Shown here: piece by piece, positions 2,437 to 63,105 of the stretch
How positions within the stretch are numbered: position 1 is the first letter of the stretch
Layout: every line of letters starts with the position of its first letter
NCBI GenBank assembly: GCA_021792365.1
Contig: JAJYUT010000002.1
Location: forward strand, 826,313 to 890,312
DNA: 64,000 bases
Reading direction: 5' to 3'
Source of the DNA: Pseudomonadota bacterium
GTDB lineage: Bacteria > Pseudomonadota > Alphaproteobacteria > Dongiales > Dongiaceae
Translations under genes and position numbers: made by a program
The notes under the pieces: generated by a model
Told to the model about the DNA's origin: nothing
Databases searched by the model: none
What the model saw: only the letters and a program-made list of their open reading frames with translations

Positions 2437-3117
2437 TCAGCCCCCCACATGGATGGGAAAGCGGCGGTTCAAGACATAGACCAGAAGCAGCACGAGGAAC
2501 GAGAACACCAGCAGCCCGGCGGACAGCAGATGCGCCTCCGCGTATCGGATGGTCTCCACATGCTCGTAGATGGCGATAGAGATGACCTTGGTCTGGCCCG
2601 GGATGTTGCCGCCCACCATCAGCACGACGCCGAACTCGCCGATCGTGTGGGCGAAGGTCAGGACGGAGGCGGTCAGGAACCCGCGCCCGGCCAGCGGCGC
2701 CGCCACCGTGACGAACCGGTCCAGGGGCCCGGCGCGCAGCATGGCGGCGGCCTCGAGCGGCGTGCGGCCGACCGTCTCGAAGGCCGCCTGCAATGGCTGG
2801 ACCGTAAAGGGCATTGAATAAAGGGTCGAGGCGACGATCAGGCCGAGGAACGAGAAGGTCAGCGTGGTCCCGGTCACGTCCAGCCAGAATCCGCCGATCG
2901 CGGATCGCGGGCTCAGCAGGATCAGCAGATAGAAGCCCAGAACGGTGGGCGGCAACACCAGGGGCAGAGCCGTGATCGCCTCGATGACGGGCTTCACGCG
3001 GCTGCCAGTATGAGCCAGCCACCACGCGACCGGCGTGCCCAGGACCAGCAGGATCGCTGTCGTGATCGCGGCCAGTTGAAGCGTGAGCCAAAGCGGACCG
3101 AGATCGGGCAGCGCCAT
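2437..3117 (-). CDS. modB: Molybdate ABC transporter, permease
   Basis: This 226-residue integral membrane protein forms the molybdate channel. It has about five hydrophobic segments and the EAA loop (EAAAMLRAGPLDRFVTVAAP) through which permeases contact ModC, with the usual G between residues. The ending NRRFPIHVGG resembles other ModB proteins. It starts three bases after modA's stop codon and is followed closely by modC, so the three genes form one transcript. Confidence 0.94.
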   Translation of the reverse strand: MALPDLGPLWLTLQLAAITTAILLVLGTPVAWWLAHTGSRVKPVIEAITALPLVLPPTVLGFYLLILLSPRSAIGGFWLDVTGTTLTFSFLGLIVASTLYSMPFTVQPLQAAFETVGRTPLEAAAMLRAGPLDRFVTVAAPLAGRGFLTASVLTFAHTIGEFGVVLMVGGNIPGQTKVISIAIYEHVETIRYAEAHLLSAGLLVFSFLVLLLVYVLNRRFPIHVGG

Positions 3118-3120
3118 GCG

Positions 3121-3882
3121 TTACTCGGTTCCGTAGCCGAACGCGGCGATGATGGCCTTGGCCTCGTCGCCCTTCAGATACTCGAGGAACGCGATCGCGG
3201 ACTTATTGCTTTCGCCAGCCTTGAGCAGGACGGCGTCCTGCCTGATCGGCGTGAACATGTCCTGTGGGACGTCGTAGCGCGATCCCTTCGGCGTGCCGCC
3301 CGCACGCTCGATGGCCGATGTGGCGATGAATCCCATCTGTGCCGCCCCGCTATCGACCATGGAAAAGGTCTGGCCGATATTCTCCCCCATCACGATCTTT
3401 GGCTGGATGGTGTCCCACAGGCCCATCGCCGTCAACGCCTCGCGCGCCGCCACGCCATAGGGCGCGAGATCGGGATTGGCAATCGCGACATGCAGCGTGT
3501 CCGGCGCGGCGAGTGCGGCTTTGGGATCGTCGCCGATGCGCTCCGCATCCGGGCTCCATAAGGAGAGCCTCCCCACCGCATAGGTGAATCGCGTGCCCGC
3601 CACGGCGTTGCCTTCCTCTTCCAGCCTGGCCGGCGTCTGCGCGTCGGCGGAAAGGAGCACCGCGAACGGCGCACCCTCGCTGATCTGGGCATAGAGCTTG
3701 CCGGTGGCGCCGGTCGTCACCTGGAGCGTGTGGCCGGTATCCTGCGTGAACTGCTTGCCGATCGCCTCGATTGCGCCGGCGAAATTCGCCGCAACCGCGA
3801 TCAGGGCTTCGTCCGCCCGCGCGGAGCCCGTGGCGATCAGCAAAAGTGCCGCGAGCGCCAGACTATGAAGGCTGTGCTTCAT
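3121..3882 (-). CDS. modA: Molybdate ABC transporter, periplasmic binding protein
   Basis: The 253-residue product has a Sec signal peptide ending at SARADE and then the ModA fold: VAANFAGAIEAIGKQF near the N-terminus, TGATGKLYAQISEGAPFAVL with the Ser/Thr positions that ligate the oxyanion, and LADPDLAP-type text (IANPDLAPYG) in the middle. It captures molybdate or tungstate in the periplasm and delivers it to ModB. It is first in modABC. The perfect 26-bp inverted repeat 80 bases upstream is the expected place for ModE repression. Confidence 0.94.
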   Translation of the reverse strand: MKHSLHSLALAALLLIATGSARADEALIAVAANFAGAIEAIGKQFTQDTGHTLQVTTGATGKLYAQISEGAPFAVLLSADAQTPARLEEEGNAVAGTRFTYAVGRLSLWSPDAERIGDDPKAALAAPDTLHVAIANPDLAPYGVAAREALTAMGLWDTIQPKIVMGENIGQTFSMVDSGAAQMGFIATSAIERAGGTPKGSRYDVPQDMFTPIRQDAVLLKAGESNKSAIAFLEYLKGDEAKAIIAAFGYGTE

Positions 3883-3961
3883 TCCGGTTCTTCCAAGACG
3901 GCATATCCGATGCGTTGTATCCGATTGTATGTATCAAGCAGAGGCGAGGCGCGGTTGGCAA

Positions 3962-3987
3962 GCGATATATTCACCTAGATATATCGC
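3962..3987. promoter_or_regulatory. Perfect inverted repeat, probable ModE operator
   Basis: GCGATATAT and ATATATCGC form a perfect 9-bp inverted repeat with an 8-bp spacer. The TATAT/ATATA cores and outer CG resemble the known ModE site of other proteobacteria. It lies 80 bases upstream of modA and 86 bases upstream of the divergent RidA-family gene, so it could affect both. A modE gene sits at the far end of the same operon. The assignment to ModE is inference from motif likeness and context. Confidence 0.65.
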
Positions 3988-4072
3988 GTTTCCGCCGGGC
4001 GCGGGCTGGACAAGAGGCGTCCGGGCCGATCAAGCTTCGGCAGCGGAGATCAGAGCCAGGGAGATCAGCATC

Positions 4073-4558
4073 ATGTCGCGCACGCAAGCCAGGCTGACCG
4101 AGCTCGGCATCGCCCTGCCGCCGCCGATGCAGGTGCCGGGCGGAATGGCTTTGCCCTTCCCATGGGTCAATGTGCGCGGCGAGCGCGTCGTCATCTCCGG
4201 CCACGGCCCGCAGAACCCCGACGGGTCGCTCGCGGGTCCGTTCGGAAAGGTGGGCGCCGATGTCACTCTGGATGAGGCGCAGGAGATCGCACGCAAGGTC
4301 GGCCTGTCGATCCTCGGCAGCCTGCAGCGCGAGCTCGGCGACCTCGATCGTATCGGCGGCTGGGTGCGAGTGTTCGGAATGGTCAACAGCACACCGGGAT
4401 TCGATCGCCATCCGGCGGTGATCAACGGCTTCTCGGACCTGATCCTGGCAGTCTTCGGGTTGGAAACCGGCCGGCATGCGCGCTCCGCGATCGGCGTTGC
4501 TGGCTTGCCGTTCGACATCGCGGTCGAAATCGAGGCGGAGGTAGTGCTCGTGCGCTAG
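4073..4558 (+). CDS. RidA/YjgF-family protein
   Basis: The 161-residue product belongs to the RidA (YjgF/YER057c/UK114) superfamily: the core has VISGHGPQNPDGSLAGPFGK and ends in VEIEAEVVLVR, both typical positions. It matches the longer subgroup with a LGIALPPPMQVPGG-like opening. RidA proteins hydrolyse reactive enamine/imine intermediates, but this subgroup often lacks the arginine needed for that, so no activity is assigned. The start at 4073 follows an AGGGAG; an upstream reading to 3929 would run across the ModE palindrome and is rejected. It diverges from modA, and a terminator follows. Confidence 0.85.
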   Translation: MSRTQARLTELGIALPPPMQVPGGMALPFPWVNVRGERVVISGHGPQNPDGSLAGPFGKVGADVTLDEAQEIARKVGLSILGSLQRELGDLDRIGGWVRVFGMVNSTPGFDRHPAVINGFSDLILAVFGLETGRHARSAIGVAGLPFDIAVEIEAEVVLVR

Positions 4559-4650: not shown

Positions 4651-4948
4651 AAGGCTCGTCCCCACGACTACACGAGAAGGTTGCCGCTCAACCGCCTTGT
4701 GACGGACGCAAGTCCCACGGGCACACGCTTTTGCGTAGCACTGTCGATTCACGAGATTCAGCCTTGCCTCAACGTGCGGTAGTTAGTACAAACGGAATGC
4801 CTGTCAAAATGCTGCACACCGCGCATGCTTGGGGTCGCGGTGCTGTATTCCAAGCCTTGGGGGCCAACTTCGCTGGCGCATCTCATTTCAGCGGGAAGTT
4901 GGTAATTGCTTGAGTGCCCGAACGGCGCAAAAAGCCGGATCGGTGCGG
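4651..4948. other. Gene-free leader of the LuxR gene
   Basis: About 300 bases between the terminator and the LuxR-type gene. No conserved protein, tRNA or strong repeat was found. Base composition is somewhat less GC-rich than the flanking genes, as expected for a promoter region. The regulator's promoter is presumably here but I could not identify boxes with confidence. Confidence 0.4.
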
Positions 4949-6160
4949 ATGCGTCAGTGCAGCGATGGGTGTCTGATGCCTGACAATAGATCCGCGGACG
5001 TTGCCGGGGAATTGCGGACACAACGCGCGACGGGCGATCCGTTGCGCGATGCGCCGGCGATTGAGTTCGGCTGGGTTCGCGACCTTTATGATGTCGCCGG
5101 CGTGCCGGAGAGTTGGCAACGCTTCCTTGCGCGCGTCTGCGAGCTGCTTGACGCGCCCGTTGCCGCGATCGCCATGCGCCTCGCGGGCAGGGAGGGCAAT
5201 CGCCTCCGTGCGCTCTACGTGGATGACGCGCCCGGGGCCTTCCGAACCGCGGATCAGCGCGGTCAGCGGGCCAACGAGCGCAATGGTCCGCCGTACGTGC
5301 TGCCCGTCATCACCTGCGATCGCCTGGCATCCACGCCGGTCTTCTCCGTCAGCCTCGAACGGCAGGATCCCGACTGCCTGTTCAAGCGGCTCGGCGTGCG
5401 CCACCTGACGGTCGCCCGCGGGATGGAAGCCGGTGACAAGCTCTCGTTCATTGCGGTCGGGCGAACCGCCGGCCAGCCGGCATTCGCCTCATCCGATATC
5501 GGCTTGCTCCAATCCGTCCTGCCCCACTTCCAGCGCGCGATCCAGCTTGCCGACATGCTCGATCAACTCAAGGCGAGCGTCGCGGCTTCGGCGGCGGTGC
5601 TCGACATGATCGCGGTCGGCGTTGTCATCTTCGACGAATACGGCGAGCGCGCGCTGACGAACGAGGCGGCGCGCAGGATATTCGATGGCGATGCCGCGAT
5701 CCTGCGCCATCTCTCCACGGAGGTGATGCGCGACGCCTCGCGCGGCGCGAACGACCACGCCCCGGAAGCGCGCGTCCTCAATCTGTCCGGCCAGGGACAG
5801 CCGCTCCTCGCGGTCATCTGGGATTCCGCTGATGAGTGCCTGTACCAGCGGCACAAGCTGGCGTTCCTCATCGATCCCGCACTGGCGCATAACATCAGCA
5901 TCGACCAGGGCGCGCTGCAACGCCTGTACGGCTTGACGTCTACGGAGGCGCGCGTCGCCGCCTTGCTCGCGAAGGGAGGCAGCGTCGCGGAAATCGCCGA
6001 TCGACTGGGGAATACGGCGTACACGATCCGTACGCATTTGCGGCACATCTTCGAGAAGACCGGCACGGCGCGGCAGGTGGATCTGGTGCATCTCCTGCTG
6101 CGCTCGCTCGTGGCGCTGCAGATACCTGCCATGCAGCGTCACGGCGAGCTGCGCGCATGA
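4949..6160 (+). CDS. LuxR-family transcription regulator with N-terminal sensory region
   Basis: The 403-residue product ends in a LuxR/GerE helix-turn-helix: GLTSTEARVAALLAKGGSV, then IADRLGNTAYTIRTHLRHIF and a final EKTGTARQVDLVHLL. The first 320 residues look like PAS/GAF-type sensing modules, including AVLDMIAVGVVIFDEYGER and LTNEAARRIF. There is no receiver domain, so the input is probably a small ligand or redox cue. The start is uncertain: ATG 4949 and ATG 4976 both have weak ribosome sites. The gene lies upstream of the fibre-like locus at 7078-10959 and is its most likely nearby regulator, which is inference from position only. Confidence 0.8.
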   Translation: MRQCSDGCLMPDNRSADVAGELRTQRATGDPLRDAPAIEFGWVRDLYDVAGVPESWQRFLARVCELLDAPVAAIAMRLAGREGNRLRALYVDDAPGAFRTADQRGQRANERNGPPYVLPVITCDRLASTPVFSVSLERQDPDCLFKRLGVRHLTVARGMEAGDKLSFIAVGRTAGQPAFASSDIGLLQSVLPHFQRAIQLADMLDQLKASVAASAAVLDMIAVGVVIFDEYGERALTNEAARRIFDGDAAILRHLSTEVMRDASRGANDHAPEARVLNLSGQGQPLLAVIWDSADECLYQRHKLAFLIDPALAHNISIDQGALQRLYGLTSTEARVAALLAKGGSVAEIADRLGNTAYTIRTHLRHIFEKTGTARQVDLVHLLLRSLVALQIPAMQRHGELRA

Positions 6161-6171
6161 CCAAGCAGGCG

Positions 6172-6750
6172 CTATTGCGGCGGCTTCCAGGAGTTGACGA
6201 AGGTCGTGGCTTGGTTCCGCAGATTGGGATCGATCTTCGCGCCGATGCGATCGCGCGCGGCGGCGGCATCGGCATCGTCCTGCTTGGCCGCCAGGCTGTA
6301 CCAGAGATAGGCCTGCAGAAGGTCGTTCGGGACGCCCTTACCGGCCTCATAGAGCGCGCCGAGATTGTACTGCGCGTCCGATAGGCCGTGCTTCGCCGCG
6401 ATCGCGTAATTGTGCGCGGCCTGCTCGTAGTTCCGCGGCATGCCCTGTCCCAACTCGTACATCCCGCCGAGATTGTTGATGGCGCCGAGATGTCCCTGGC
6501 TCGCCGCCTTCTCGAACCAGCTGCGGGCGGCGGCGAAGTCAACGGCCACGCCAAGCCCGTTGGCATATATGAGCCCCAGATTGTTCATCGCGCTCGAATT
6601 GCCCTCTTCCGCCAGTGCGAGAAACCCTTTCAAGGCGGTCGCGTAGTCGCCGCCGTGATAGGCGCTGTAGGGATCGTCCGTGCGCGCACCATGCGCATGG
6701 CCGAAGAACACAAGGCAGAAGACAAGCAGAATGGCCATAAGCCGTCGCAT
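6172..6750 (-). CDS. Exported Sel1-repeat (TPR-like) protein
   Basis: A signal peptide (hydrophobic LMAILLVFCLVFFGHAHGA) is followed by four or five Sel1 repeats of about 36 residues, each with the A(M/I)NNLG or AQYNLGALYEAGKGV pattern. Such repeats form helical solenoids that hold protein partners in the periplasm. The 192-residue protein has no catalytic motif. It runs opposite to, and ends next to, the LuxR gene, and diverges from the exported-protein cluster that starts at 7078. A perfect 16-bp palindrome lies 11 bases upstream of its start. Confidence 0.85.
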   Translation of the reverse strand: MRRLMAILLVFCLVFFGHAHGARTDDPYSAYHGGDYATALKGFLALAEEGNSSAMNNLGLIYANGLGVAVDFAAARSWFEKAASQGHLGAINNLGGMYELGQGMPRNYEQAAHNYAIAAKHGLSDAQYNLGALYEAGKGVPNDLLQAYLWYSLAAKQDDADAAAARDRIGAKIDPNLRNQATTFVNSWKPPQ

Positions 6751-7077: not shown

Positions 7078-7458
7078 ATGAAGAAGCTCTTGATTGGCGT
7101 TTCCGCTCTCGCGCTCGGCCTGACGGCTGCGTCCGGCGCGTGGGCCAACCCGAAGAACACGTTCTCAGACGGCAATACCCAGACGGTGAACAGCATCGCG
7201 GTCGCCGGCATCGGCGCCGCGTTCAGCGAATCCTTCAACGTCAACAACGAGGCCGTGTCGGTCCAGACGCTCGTCGGCGTGGCCGTCGGCGCGACGCTGG
7301 ACGTGGACCTGGTTCCGGTGTTCTCCGGCAACGCGACCAACGGGGCCGTCACCAACAACCATGGCATCGCCATGGGCGGTCTGGCGAACTCCGGCAACGC
7401 GGCCGTGCAGCAGCAAGCGGTGTCGCTGTCGGCGGTCGGGTCCGTGAGCATTCAGTAA
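7078..7458 (+). CDS. Small exported Asn/Val/Ala-rich protein, candidate fibre subunit
   Basis: The 126-residue product has a textbook signal peptide (MKKLLIGVSALALGLTAASG, cleavage after AWA). The mature part has no Cys, is rich in Asn, Val, Ala, Ser and Gly, and alternates polar and hydrophobic residues (for example NNEAVSVQTLVGVAVGATLD), as in beta-fibre proteins. It contains NGAVTNNHGIAMGG, which matches GGISNNHGMTNI in the gene at 7702. The start has AGGAG eight bases upstream. It opens a five-gene same-strand run with an exported C39 peptidase and a coiled-coil/barrel porin. I do not recognise a named family. Confidence 0.75.
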   Translation: MKKLLIGVSALALGLTAASGAWANPKNTFSDGNTQTVNSIAVAGIGAAFSESFNVNNEAVSVQTLVGVAVGATLDVDLVPVFSGNATNGAVTNNHGIAMGGLANSGNAAVQQQAVSLSAVGSVSIQ

Positions 7459-7701: not shown

Positions 7702-8151
7702 ATGATCAGGACCATTCACGATTTCACCCTCCGAACGGCGGTGGCACCGTCGGCCGGCTCGTGCCGGAGCCCCGCATGGCGCGCGGTGCTTCTGGCCGGT
7801 GCTGCGGGCATTGCCTTGGCCATGGCCGCAGGCGCTGATCCGGCGCTGGCTGAGGATAGCCTCGGCGCCCCCATTGCGGTCGAGGACCTCGCGGAGGTCC
7901 GCGGCGGGGCGACCGGCCAGGACGTTCACGTCAACTCTCACAATACGACGAACACCGCCACCTCGACGCCGACGACGACCGCCACCAACCAGGACAACGA
8001 GATCACCGTCGGAGGCGACATGCCTTCGGGGAACTTCATCATCCATGCGGGCGGGATCAGCAACAATCACGGCATGACGAACATCGTCTCGAACACCGCG
8101 CCCCAATCCAACGTCCAGGGCATCATGAGTATGAGCGTGGTCCTGCATTGA
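7702..8151 (+). CDS. Exported protein with double-glycine leader motif, candidate fibre subunit
   Basis: The 149-residue product has a long Arg-containing N-region and a hydrophobic signal core ending at DPALAED near residue 50. It is followed by IAVEDLAEVRGG, a double-glycine motif at residues 68-69 like that cut by C39 peptidases. The 80-residue tail is very rich in Asn and Thr (HNTTNTATSTPTTTATNQDN) and has the NNHG segment shared with the 7078 product. The next gene, 13 bases away, encodes an exported C39 peptidase, so cleavage after Gly69 in the periplasm is the simplest proposal. The AGGG upstream supports the start. The function is inferred. Confidence 0.7.
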   Translation: MIRTIHDFTLRTAVAPSAGSCRSPAWRAVLLAGAAGIALAMAAGADPALAEDSLGAPIAVEDLAEVRGGATGQDVHVNSHNTTNTATSTPTTTATNQDNEITVGGDMPSGNFIIHAGGISNNHGMTNIVSNTAPQSNVQGIMSMSVVLH

Positions 8152-8163
8152 GCGAGCTGTCCG

Positions 8164-8883
8164 GTGAGCAATCGAAGGGCACTATCCTGGGTGGCATGCG
8201 TTGCCGCATGTCTGCTCGTCGCCGGCGGAGCGGCGCACGATGCTGCGGGCGGCGAGCTTTCGGTCTCGAATGGGGTCGAAGGGCGGGCGCGCGTCAGTGT
8301 CACAAGCTGGCGAGACATCCCATTCCGGACGATCGTGCGTCAGCAATACGACTTTTCCTGCGGGTCGGCCTCCGTGGCCACCCTCCTCACCTATCATCTT
8401 GAGCGCCCGACCACGGAGAAGGACGCCTTCGTCGCCATGTACGAGATCGGCGACAAGGAGAAGATCCAGCGCGAGGGATTCTCGCTCTACGAGATGAAGC
8501 TCTATCTGGAATCGCTCGGGTACCGGGCGGACGGCTTCCGCGTTTCCCTCGACCGGCTGCAGGAGATCGGCATCCCCGCGATCGTTCTCATCACCTGGAA
8601 GAACTACAAGCACTTCGTGGTGGTCAAGGGCGTGCGCGACAACCACGTCCTGATCGGCGATCCGGCCCGCGGCCTGAAGGTCATGCCCCGGGATGAGTTC
8701 ATGACCGCTTGGGCCGACGGCATCGTGTTCGCCGTTCACAACGTGGATTTCATCGCCAAGCGGCACTTCAACGACGAAGGCGAGTGGAAGGGCCGGCCGC
8801 GCGCGCCGCTCGCCAGCGGGGTCGGCCGCTCGGGCATCGGAACCATCAACATCCTTCTGCCGGGTGCGGCAGAGCTATTCTGA
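8164..8883 (+). CDS. Exported C39-family cysteine peptidase, FapD-like
   Basis: The 239-residue protein has a signal peptide (hydrophobic core from residue 8 to about 24) and one C39 peptidase domain. The oxyanion Gln and catalytic Cys are in RQQYDFSCGSAS (Cys66), the His in NYKHFVVVKG (His150) and the Asp in VLIGDPARG (Asp166). C39 peptidases cut after double-glycine leaders; here the domain stands alone and is exported, not fused to an ABC transporter, as in the FapD peptidase of the Pseudomonas functional amyloid operon. Flanking genes on both sides carry double-glycine motifs. The start is GTG at 8164, needed to give a complete signal peptide. Confidence 0.87.
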   Translation: MSNRRALSWVACVAACLLVAGGAAHDAAGGELSVSNGVEGRARVSVTSWRDIPFRTIVRQQYDFSCGSASVATLLTYHLERPTTEKDAFVAMYEIGDKEKIQREGFSLYEMKLYLESLGYRADGFRVSLDRLQEIGIPAIVLITWKNYKHFVVVKGVRDNHVLIGDPARGLKVMPRDEFMTAWADGIVFAVHNVDFIAKRHFNDEGEWKGRPRAPLASGVGRSGIGTINILLPGAAELF

Positions 8884-8896
8884 TCGGAGGAGCGCC

Positions 8897-9550
8897 ATGA
8901 CGCTCGCACAGTCATTTCGCCAGTCTTCTAGCCCCCTTGCCGGCACCGCCCGCCGCATCTGCGCCGGACTCGGCCGCACGGCCCTTGCCGGGTTGCTGCT
9001 CGGCGCGTCCGCCCTGCCCGCGGCAGCGGGCATGGCGCAGAGCACCGGTGGCTTCACCGGCCTTGCCACCCTCACCGAGGACGAGCTGCGCGCGATGCGC
9101 GGGGGATTCATGGTCAGCGGCATCGACATCAATTTCGGCGCGGTCGTTCGTGTCCTGGTCAACAACATGCTGGTGGCGGAAACCCATTTGACGCTGAACA
9201 GCAATGGAACGATGGCGGCGCCGTCGACGACGATCCACAATGCCGCGCTGGCCTCCGAGTTCACGGATCCGTCCCAGCTCGCCGGGAGCGGGATCCAGGT
9301 CAGCGGCCCGCCCGGCGCCAACGGATTCGTCATCAGGGACGCCAACGGGGTCTCCCTCGCGCTCAACCACATCACCGCCGGCCAGGTCTTCGGCTTGCTG
9401 GCCAACAACGCGACCGGCCGCAACGTCACGCAGACGATCGACGCGACGCTGACCATCAATAATTTTTCGCAGATCAATGCCGGTCTGTTGAGCACCATCG
9501 CTGCGGGGCGCGCGATGCGTGCCGGTGCCCCCGATCTCATGCTGCAATAG
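8897..9550 (+). CDS. Exported protein with bacteriocin-like double-glycine motif, candidate fibre subunit
   Basis: The 217-residue product starts at an ATG six bases after GGAGG. A hydrophobic signal segment ends near ALPAAAG (residue 45). LTEDELRAMRGG, with Gly69-Gly70, fits the classical double-glycine leader pattern very well. The mature 147 residues have no Cys and are rich in Asn, Thr, Ala and Gly, with beta-alternating text such as TQTIDATLTINNFSQIN. It lies 13 bases after the C39 peptidase gene and before the porin-like gene. The pattern suggests a peptidase substrate that is exported further. No named family is recognised. Confidence 0.72.
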   Translation: MTLAQSFRQSSSPLAGTARRICAGLGRTALAGLLLGASALPAAAGMAQSTGGFTGLATLTEDELRAMRGGFMVSGIDINFGAVVRVLVNNMLVAETHLTLNSNGTMAAPSTTIHNAALASEFTDPSQLAGSGIQVSGPPGANGFVIRDANGVSLALNHITAGQVFGLLANNATGRNVTQTIDATLTINNFSQINAGLLSTIAAGRAMRAGAPDLMLQ

Positions 9551-9687: not shown

Positions 9688-10959
9688 ATGAACAGACGGA
9701 CCTGTTATGTCGCGCTGCTGGCTGCAGCCCAAGCGGCGGCGCCGGGGACGGCTATCGCAGAAAGTGCGGAAGAGCTCGAGCGGCGGGTGCGGCAGCTTGA
9801 GGATGCCGTCCAGCAGCAGCAACAGATCATCCTTGAGCAGCAGCTGATATTGGACCGGCAGCAGGAGAAGCTCAGCACCATCGACGCGCGGCAACTGGAG
9901 ATGACGCGCGGCGCGGGGGTGAGGCAAGCACAGCCCTCGACCCAACCCGCGCCTCAATCAGCTCCGGGAACTCCGGCCGCCACCCCGCCGGACCAGCCGG
10001 TCGGCGAAGCGCCGGAGGAGGAGCGGCCTGAGATCACCGTCATCTCGGATTATGGCGGCGTCCTGACGCCGACCGGGACTCTGGTCGTCGAGCCGTCGCT
10101 GGACTACTCGCATTCCAACGTCAACCGCCTCACCTTCCGCGGCATTGAGCTGCAGGAGACCGTGCTCATCGGCATCATCGAGGCATCGGACGCCGACCGG
10201 GACTATTTTTCGCCCGCGCTGACGTTACGCTACGGCGTGTTCGACGGCTTCGAGGTCGAGGCCAAGGTCCCGTACGTGTTCCGCGACGACCGGATCAGCT
10301 TCCTCGTTCCCCAGGCTTCGGCGCCGGACATCGAGCGCACCGACTCGCTCGACGGCAACGGGTTGGGCGACATCGAAATCGCCGCCCACTACCAGATCAC
10401 CAACAGCGCGCCGTACCTGGTGGGCAACCTGCGGTTCAAGACCCGCACCGGCGACGGGCCGTTCGACGTGAAGCGCGACAGTTTCGGTATCGAGGAGGAG
10501 CTGCCGACCGGCTCCGGGTTCTATGCGCTGGAGCCGAGCCTGACGGTCCTGTTCCCGACCGATCCGGTCGTGCTGTTCGGCAGCGTCAGCTATCAGGTGA
10601 ACTTCCCGGACGACGTCAACGAGCAGATCGGTGACGTCACGGTCCGCGATGTCGATCCGGGCGACGCGATCGGCGTGGCGTTCGGGATGGGCTTTTCGGT
10701 GAACGACAATTTCTCGTTCAGCCTCGGCTACAAGCACCATTTCATCTTCGGCACCGAGACCGAGATCATCGAGCCGCCGCCGGGCGATACGCGGAAGGAG
10801 AAGTCGAACTCACTGCATGTCGGCTCCGCCCTGTTCGGGATGGGCTATCGCGTGTCGGAAGACGTGGGTGTGAACCTGGATCTCGAGCTCGGCGCGACCG
10901 AGGACGCGCCTGACATGCGGGTGCTGCTCCGCGTGCCGATCGCGGTCAGCCTGTTCTAG
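9688..10959 (+). CDS. Outer-membrane beta-barrel with N-terminal coiled coil, FapF-like
   Basis: The 423-residue product has a signal peptide (residues 1-25), a Gln/Glu-rich heptad region likely to form a trimeric coiled coil (26-72), a Pro/Gln linker (73-112) and a C-terminal region of amphipathic strands ending in aromatic/hydrophobic VAVSLF (113-423), typical of an outer-membrane barrel. The barrel text resembles the MetA-pathway phenol transporter family (for example ALTLRYGVFDGFEVEAKVPY). The FapF amyloid exporter of Pseudomonas has the same coiled coil-linker-barrel plan. As last gene of the run it is the natural exporter for the small proteins. Confidence 0.8.
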   Translation: MNRRTCYVALLAAAQAAAPGTAIAESAEELERRVRQLEDAVQQQQQIILEQQLILDRQQEKLSTIDARQLEMTRGAGVRQAQPSTQPAPQSAPGTPAATPPDQPVGEAPEEERPEITVISDYGGVLTPTGTLVVEPSLDYSHSNVNRLTFRGIELQETVLIGIIEASDADRDYFSPALTLRYGVFDGFEVEAKVPYVFRDDRISFLVPQASAPDIERTDSLDGNGLGDIEIAAHYQITNSAPYLVGNLRFKTRTGDGPFDVKRDSFGIEEELPTGSGFYALEPSLTVLFPTDPVVLFGSVSYQVNFPDDVNEQIGDVTVRDVDPGDAIGVAFGMGFSVNDNFSFSLGYKHHFIFGTETEIIEPPPGDTRKEKSNSLHVGSALFGMGYRVSEDVGVNLDLELGATEDAPDMRVLLRVPIAVSLF

Positions 10960-21384: not shown

Positions 21385-22542
21385 TCACGCACCTTTGGAG
21401 ATGCGTTCCCATTGCTTCTTGTAGGCGTCCTGGTTCGTGAACCAGTACTGGGCGCTCTCCCAGACGAAGTTCTCGAACTTCCCGGTCGGATCGAAGCCGG
21501 GCAGGCTCTTCACCTTTTCGCTCAGTTCGACCTTGTTGGGGTCGAGGGAGGGCGGATAGTTCTGCCCTTCGGCAATGGCGATGGAGATCTTCGGCTCGAT
21601 GCACAGGTTGATCAGCTGCTCGCATTCATTCATCGGGCTACCGGCCAGCACCATCAGGCCCTCCAGCCAGGCGAAACCAGCATCCTTCGTATCGATGAAG
21701 CCGATGTCATGGCCGTTTTGCTGGAGATAGGCGACACGGCCCGACCAGCCGTCGGAAAGGATCACCTCCTCCTTGGACATGAGGTCGATGAATTCCTGTC
21801 CGGAGGTCCAATATTTCACCACCAGGTCGCGCTGCGTGCGGCAGGCGTCCCACATGGCCGCCTGATCCGTCACGCCCTGCGGGTCCTGCCCCGTATACAG
21901 GCTGCCCATCCAGGCACGGGTCTGGAAGCTGTCGTACAGCGCCATCTTGCCTTTGTACTTCTCGTCCCACAGAATCTTGGCGCCGGCCTTCGCCTCGTCA
22001 TCGGAGATGTATTTCCGGTTATAGGCGATTCCGGTCGTGCCATAGTCGAACGGCACCGCGTATAGCTTGCCTTCGCTCTCCTTGCGGAACGCTTCAAGTG
22101 TCGCCGGGAGCAGCAGTTGGAGGTTCGGCATGTTCGCTTCATTGAGCGGAGCGGCAAGGCCGGGCTTGTAGAAGCGGTAGTAGTCGTACGCGCCGCTCAC
22201 CAGGAAGGTGTTGTACTCTCCAGGCTGCGCCGCCTTGACCAGAGCAAGAAACTCTTCGGTATCGCCGAACTCGCCTTCGACGACCTTCACACCGGTCTTC
22301 TCCGTGAATGCCGGGAAGGCGTTGTTGCGGAACGCCTCGGACACGATGCCGCCCCAACCGTCGAACCGCACCTGCTCCACGGCCGCCAGCGCGTCGCGCG
22401 TCAGCTTGCCGAACGGGCCACCCACCACGCCGACCGCGGCGGCGGCCACCGTCAGGAAACCCATCAACTGGCGGCGGCTGATGTCGCCGTTGCCATACGC
22501 CTCCAGCAGGCGCTCGTACTTCTTGTCGTCACCGAACGTCAT
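21385..22542 (-). CDS. PotD-like extracellular solute-binding protein
   Basis: The 385-residue protein belongs to solute-binding family 1/8 (PotD/PotF). Near residue 24 it has ISRRQLMGFL followed by a hydrophobic run, a Tat-type signal. The mature part shows GWGGIVSEAFRNNAFPAFTE, VPFDYGTTGIAYN and the hinge text typical of polyamine binding. ATG 22542 lies nine bases after AGGAGG and is preferred to the ATG at 22551, which abuts it. The substrate (polyamine or other) is inferred from family only. Confidence 0.9.
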   Translation of the reverse strand: MTFGDDKKYERLLEAYGNGDISRRQLMGFLTVAAAAVGVVGGPFGKLTRDALAAVEQVRFDGWGGIVSEAFRNNAFPAFTEKTGVKVVEGEFGDTEEFLALVKAAQPGEYNTFLVSGAYDYYRFYKPGLAAPLNEANMPNLQLLLPATLEAFRKESEGKLYAVPFDYGTTGIAYNRKYISDDEAKAGAKILWDEKYKGKMALYDSFQTRAWMGSLYTGQDPQGVTDQAAMWDACRTQRDLVVKYWTSGQEFIDLMSKEEVILSDGWSGRVAYLQQNGHDIGFIDTKDAGFAWLEGLMVLAGSPMNECEQLINLCIEPKISIAIAEGQNYPPSLDPNKVELSEKVKSLPGFDPTGKFENFVWESAQYWFTNQDAYKKQWERISKGA

Positions 22543-54710: not shown

Positions 54711-58934
<4,224 letters not shown>

Positions 58935-58938
58935 TCAA

Positions 58939-63105
<4,167 letters not shown>

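Follow-up and report, generated by a model that had tools for sequence, protein, structure and literature searches.

Organization of the locus

The window, meaning the whole 64-kb stretch of DNA that was analysed, contains a Fap-like secretion operon with genes in the order of an exported 126-aa protein (7078), a FapA-position protein (7702), a C39 peptidase (8164), a FapE-like protein (8897) and a FapF-like protein (9688). The features are as follows, and gene products are named in the text by the first coordinate of the gene.

4829..6160, + strand: LuxR-type regulator, start codon uncertain (GerE domain, E 2e-9)
7078..7458, + strand: exported 126-aa protein rich in Ala/Val/Gly/Ser/Asn, without GG motif (hydrophobic N-terminal signal in the sequence)
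7702..8151, + strand: FapA-position protein, 149 aa, with Sec-type signal, leader motif, low-complexity Asn/Thr-rich part and C-terminal module (alignment A2 with 36 upstream relatives)
7873..7908, + strand: leader motif IAVEDLAEVRGG, residues 58-69 of the 7702 product (pattern scan, alignment A2)
8164..8883, + strand: FapD-like stand-alone C39 peptidase, 239 aa, with hydrophobic N-terminal signal (PF03412, NCBIfam models, PCAT alignment)
8897..9550, + strand: FapE-like protein, 217 aa, with Sec-type signal, leader motif and beta-rich mature domain (alignment A1, canonical FapE profile match, AF2 model)
9071..9106, + strand: leader motif LTEDELRAMRGG, residues 59-70 of the 8897 product (pattern scan, alignment A1)
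9688..10959, + strand: FapF-like outer-membrane pore with N-terminal coiled coil (NCBIfam FapF/FilC, PDB 5o67)
9880..9915, + strand: third motif copy IDARQLEMTRGA, residues 65-76 of the FapF-like protein (transition from coiled coil to linker)

The same gene order is found in the relative L097, which has an ortholog of the 7078 product at the equivalent place and a protein similar to the LuxR-type regulator upstream of the operon. The 7078 product is a candidate fibre subunit by position only, and the LuxR-type protein a possible regulator of the operon. Between the regulator gene and the operon lies a divergent gene for a Sel1-repeat protein with a signal (6172-6750, minus strand), and a scan for promoters and terminators gave nothing above shuffled sequences. 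No window protein contains the Fap repeat (G-x4-N-x3-G-x6-N), which matches three times each in the control sequences FapB and FapC from the canonical locus L131, and no FapB/FapC two-gene pair was seen at the window locus. Since this repeat is absent and relatives of FapD and FapF are present, the locus is a Fap-like secretion operon rather than a strict Fap operon.

In the annotation of a Croceicoccus marinus plasmid, the flanking proteins are hypothetical and stand between a 'C39 family peptidase' and a 'transporter'. The system had no match in any of three genomes of the same genus (0/3, one of them 68% complete), and close copies with 61 and 48% identity are present in two genomes of the same family (G009 and G005), indicating a patchy distribution. 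Two adjacent 1388-aa ORFs at 54711-63105, considered as a possible duplication, are rpoC and rpoB.

A C39-type leader motif on both sides of the peptidase gene

A strict C39-leader pattern, [LIVMF]x3[EDQ][LIVMF]x2[LIVM]xGG, scanned over the six frames of the window, matches three times, and two of these matches are the IAVEDLAEVRGG and LTEDELRAMRGG sites. The third, at 21517, was rejected, as its ORF is antisense to a solute-binding protein gene. The motifs in the 7702 and 8897 products, flanking the C39 gene, lie where the sequence-only reading had placed them. That reading had also drawn attention to their occurrence at the same residue number in two otherwise different proteins. Positions 69 and 70 are indeed nearly equal, but this is a coincidence and was discarded as a meaningful signal, because the last motif residue ranges from 41 to 105 in relatives of the downstream family and from 32 to 103 in those of the upstream family. 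Nor are the two proteins fully unrelated, as their families have a common C-terminal module (hhalign 97.7%, E 2e-12). Pfam and NCBIfam models gave no convincing match for either of the two families. Signal peptides were judged from sequence, by eye or by a crude hydrophobicity rule.

The C39 peptidase

The 8164 product matches PF03412 with an E value of 8e-25 (87.7 bits against a curated cut-off of 22), and its Cys66, His150 and Asp166 align to PCAT peptidase domains. The C39 domain, this triad and the hydrophobic N-terminal signal agree with the earlier description of an exported C39 peptidase encoded between the two motif proteins. NCBIfam C39_FapD matches with E 1e-39, at 136 bits against a cut-off of 330, and FilB with E 4e-33; judged on these profiles, the protein is a FapD homolog and not an equivalog. 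The catalytic pattern is intact in 81 of 82 C39 relatives. FapD itself is a periplasmic C39 peptidase with an essential catalytic Cys, whose C38A exchange abolishes secretion and whose target was reported as unclear in 2017 (PMC5557850).

The C39 domain is homologous to that of PCAT exporters, whose leaders likewise carry hydrophobic residues at -4, -7 and -12 before GG. However, PCAT cleavage is cytoplasmic and coupled to ABC export, whereas the window peptidase is stand-alone with its own signal, its putative substrates have Sec-type signals, and Arg at -3 is a hallmark of the window family. A role as a PCAT bacteriocin exporter was therefore rejected for this 239-aa stand-alone protein, whose putative substrates have hydrophobic N-terminal signals. 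Only the leader of the window proteins, and not the cargo, resembles bacteriocins.

Conservation of the motif across relatives

Scanning genome contigs with the window C39 protein as query yielded 80 loci, mostly from Proteobacteria, and most of these have a FapF relative nearby. A profile built from the downstream proteins finds a FapE-like ORF just downstream of the C39 gene in 79 of the 80, the exception being L080, whose contig ends about 20 bases past the C39 gene. These proteins nearly always have an N-terminal signal followed by L-x3-R-(G/A)-G, with Arg at -3 and Leu/Met at -7 each in 98 of 103 proteins, and with GG (69), AG (15) or GR/GK (10) as the last two motif residues. The same profile also found 58 upstream ORFs in the FapA position, among which Arg at -3 occurs in 43 and the motif ends in GG (25), GR (22) or AR/AK (7). 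When 46 FapE-like proteins were aligned (A1), mean column identity was 18% and the only invariant column was the motif Arg (R68), with Met1, G69, G70 and G75 nearly invariant. The family is very divergent, and no other feature of this alignment is as well conserved as the motif. The sequence-only reading had named conservation of the GG motif in relatives as a check on its proposal, and both the 46-sequence alignment and the 80 loci bear it out. As locus counts include related genomes (many Halomonas, Methylobacter and Pseudoxanthomonas) and are not independent events, the taxonomic spread, which covers alpha-, beta- and gammaproteobacteria, Geotalea/Geomonas and one Nitrospirae bin, is a stronger point than the raw counts.

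Since the seeds of the downstream profile themselves carried the motif, circularity was avoided in two further tests, namely a model of the mature part alone and a position-only comparison of Sec-type ORFs. The mature-part model retrieved 115 distinct proteins, and the motif precedes the mature part in 100; most of the rest are artefacts of the alignment or belong to the upstream proteins, with SGR, TGR or RAM forms. In the position-only comparison, the motif is present in 36 of 69 Sec-type ORFs adjoining C39 against 5 of 238 elsewhere (p 2e-22), and the latter five are family members that were put out of range by the ORF start. Single GG pairs are common in GC-rich genomes, and the motifs could on this ground be taken as chance glycine pairs in such a genome. 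This explanation is, however, exceedingly improbable and was rejected on the basis of conservation across phyla and the position-only test, and it also sits poorly with the six-frame scan of the 64 kb, in which two of just three strict matches fall at this locus.

In two loci, two C39 genes lie close by, each with its own FapE-like neighbour (L140, 5305-6006 and 8169-8870, where the copies look identical, and L135, 4810-5514 and 9722-10438). On a Vibrio plasmid (L153, 4078-5086), both C39 and the small gene upstream seem frame-split, for which decay or sequencing error are possible.

Structure and variants of the putative substrates

An AF2 model of the 8897 product based on 46 sequences (mean pLDDT 74.6, domain blocks about 80-93) has a helix at residues 61-68 that ends at GG and a beta-rich domain from residue 76. 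A fold search with this model gave no PDB match at E 0.001 or better. The model of the 7702 product is mostly of low confidence, with only the signal and the leader helix (60-67) usable. In the FapE-like proteins of six loci (L006, L008, L010, L019, L022 and L029), from gammaproteobacterial bins including two of Woeseiaceae, a membrane segment and a long coiled coil stand in place of a short, cleavable signal and precede RGG (or RGA, RAG) and then the FapE-like domain, with no obvious signal-peptidase site. Should this segment be the membrane anchor that it resembles, release of the FapE-like domain would require a cut near the motif.

A third motif copy in the FapF-like pore

The 9688 product matches NCBIfam FapF over its full length with E 1e-39 (136 bits against a cut-off of 700), and NCBIfam FilC and PDB 5o67 (FapF) with E 8e-26 each. 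The IDARQLEMTRGA copy lies at the junction of its coiled coil with a Pro/Gln-rich linker, the FapF relative of L097 has LSPMTLQDIRGA, and those of L006, L008, L029 and L059 have similar motifs, each with a shuffle p of 0.01 or less. Cleavage of FapF in the linker is a suggestion of the published model (PMC5557850), with which the pore motif fits, yet it is a minority feature, being clear in about 6 of 48 FapF relatives with most lacking it. The pore could be the main or only target, with a linker cut changing the gate and the copies in the small proteins serving as inhibitors or decoys, and the published suggestion together with the IDARQLEMTRGA and LSPMTLQDIRGA sites speaks for it. Given that the motif occurs in nearly all FapE-like proteins and only that minority of FapF relatives, such an arrangement is judged quite unlikely.

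Relation to the Fap system of Pseudomonas

For comparison, canonical fap loci (L131-L134) were used, whose 'Pseudomonas' label rests on a FapD over the NCBIfam cut-off and the FapA-F gene set. Their FapE proteins carry ELKDQELATLRGRYVMPG or ...LRGKYVMPG at the place equivalent to the motif, and the alignment of the FapE-like profile with canonical FapE runs through the motif (47 columns, 94.9%, E 4e-8), while the NCBIfam FapE model matches 1 of 46 FapE-like members (E 0.003). In published mass spectrometry (PMC5557850), complete processing of the N-terminus was seen for FapE alone among the Fap proteins, and the aligned LRG(R/K) would fit this loss of the FapE N-terminus. The motif is hence a candidate FapD site in FapE, and the similar arrangement in about 80 other bacteria points to a putative target of FapD.

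FapA of the canonical loci has ELSDGDFASVASG, ELSDRDIGGISSG or similar, which reads like a putative C39 leader with SG for GG, although profile comparison found no homology between FapA and the upstream family (1.5%). Since FapA peptides were detected throughout in the published mass spectrometry (PMC5557850), this FapA-type site may be uncut in Pseudomonas. The two systems share a homologous C39 peptidase, periplasmic in Pseudomonas and predicted to be so in the window, and the trimeric-pore family, and the FapE of Pseudomonas, with its aligned LRG(R/K), has the place of the FapE-like protein of the window. They differ in that the Pseudomonas site is RGR/RGK and the window site RGG, that the window proteins lack the Fap repeat, and that the C39 and FapF-like proteins of the window are far below the NCBIfam cut-offs.

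Proposed two-step maturation

The favoured interpretation, which is considered likely, is a Fap-like operon whose accessory proteins carry a two-step leader cut by a periplasmic C39 peptidase. In a first step, the 7702, 8164, 8897 and 9688 proteins would be exported across the inner membrane by Sec, with removal of their signal peptides. In a second step, the periplasmic C39 peptidase would recognise a short amphipathic helix ending in R-G-G (with Leu at -7 and hydrophobic residues at -4 and -12) and cut at or beside GG, which would free the FapE-like domain in its mature form and probably also the FapA-position protein. After this cut, the proteins may be able to enter the FapF-like pore, move through it or unlock it, and secretion of the fibre subunit (perhaps the 7078 product) would then follow. 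The motif, the synteny, its conservation, the homologies and the intact catalytic residues are direct observations, from which we infer the Sec export, the cut, its order and its effect. A cut after the second Gly is favoured because of the hydrophobic register. However, one residue earlier is possible, because Arg and the first Gly are better conserved and because R/K stands last in canonical FapE and in many upstream proteins.

The R/K as last residue in Pseudomonas is unusual for C39 sites and counts against reading the motif as a cut site. The RGG helix could instead be a docking or targeting signal, a binding site for the C39-like protein or for the coiled coil of FapF that stays uncut there and serves a chaperone-like role, with any trimming by other proteases. 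As a passage of PMC5557850 cites, a chaperone function is known for some C39-like domains of type 1 secretion, and the last residue of the motif varies (G, R, K) more than Arg at -3, as a binding motif might. Docking is nevertheless an improbable account, though the least so among the alternatives, as the catalytic residues are kept in all but one of the C39 relatives, the C38A exchange in FapD abolishes secretion while FapE loses its N-terminus (PMC5557850), and variants that look membrane-anchored would need a release step. Export first and a C39 cut thereafter, which is the order the sequence-only reading had put forward, is thus probably right: the motif is conserved in relatives and fits FapD biochemistry, and what falls away is the meaning attached to the shared residue number. 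The Fap/FapF context, the motif copy in the FapF-like pore, the module common to the two proteins and the restriction of the bacteriocin likeness to the leader had escaped that reading.

Other related systems

The Nap island of Neisseria gonorrhoeae similarly combines a C39 peptidase (NapP), a FapF relative (NapF) and the GG-motif proteins NapA-C, but its cargo consists of short cationic peptides in autolysis, whereas that of the window comprises FapA/FapE-like proteins (PMC11798529). The portion of the Nap paper considered here describes GG motifs and no Sec-then-GG leader (PMC11798529). In the putative Fil pilus system, the FilB (C39) and FilC models match the window C39 and FapF-like proteins, and Fil-type loci also have a signal with GG/GA leaders; the Fil leader differs, being LTxxQMDxVxAGG or LELSRQEMKDTQGA, without Arg at -3.

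Beside a Fil-type C39 gene on a plasmid of Acinetobacter sp. SAAs474 (L152), three paralogs (944-1270, 2837-3304 and 3751-4134) have a nearly identical signal and leader (...LELSRQEMKDTQGA) and different cargo, which is the pattern of bacteriocin precursors. One contig (L025) has a second, Fil-type C39 locus (1098-2100, with C39 at 2485-3303) beside a second FapF relative, whose small proteins with a signal and LTxxQMDxVxAGG represent a different leader class.

Significance

C39 peptidases with GG leaders, Fap systems and the combination of C39, a FapF-like protein and GG peptides (Nap island, PMC11798529) are already known. A search of an open-access library, with subscription papers, preprints and supplementary files lying outside it, gave no report of a Sec signal followed by a C39 leader as a conserved two-step signal, of the site in FapE or of any cut site of FapD, so that priority is uncertain. 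The wider proposition, for which the chances appear evenly balanced, is a general route common to Fap, Fil, Nap and the window family, in which proteins would pass by Sec, be cut by a periplasmic C39 peptidase at a second, double-glycine-type leader and proceed to a FapF-type pore. In this general route, FapD would recognise L-x3-R-(G/A)-(G/R/K) in FapE, in FapA-position proteins and, for some systems, also in the pore, and one protease would mature adaptor, chaperone and gate.

Amyloid secretion in Pseudomonas requires active FapD, and the leader that takes a disguised form (RGR/RGK) in Pseudomonas FapE is of the clean double-glycine type in the relatives of the window proteins. The question of the FapD target is therefore testable by single-residue changes. 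The finding also suggests a further role for C39 leaders, which are known from ABC exporters that cut in the cytoplasm, as a second signal in the periplasm.
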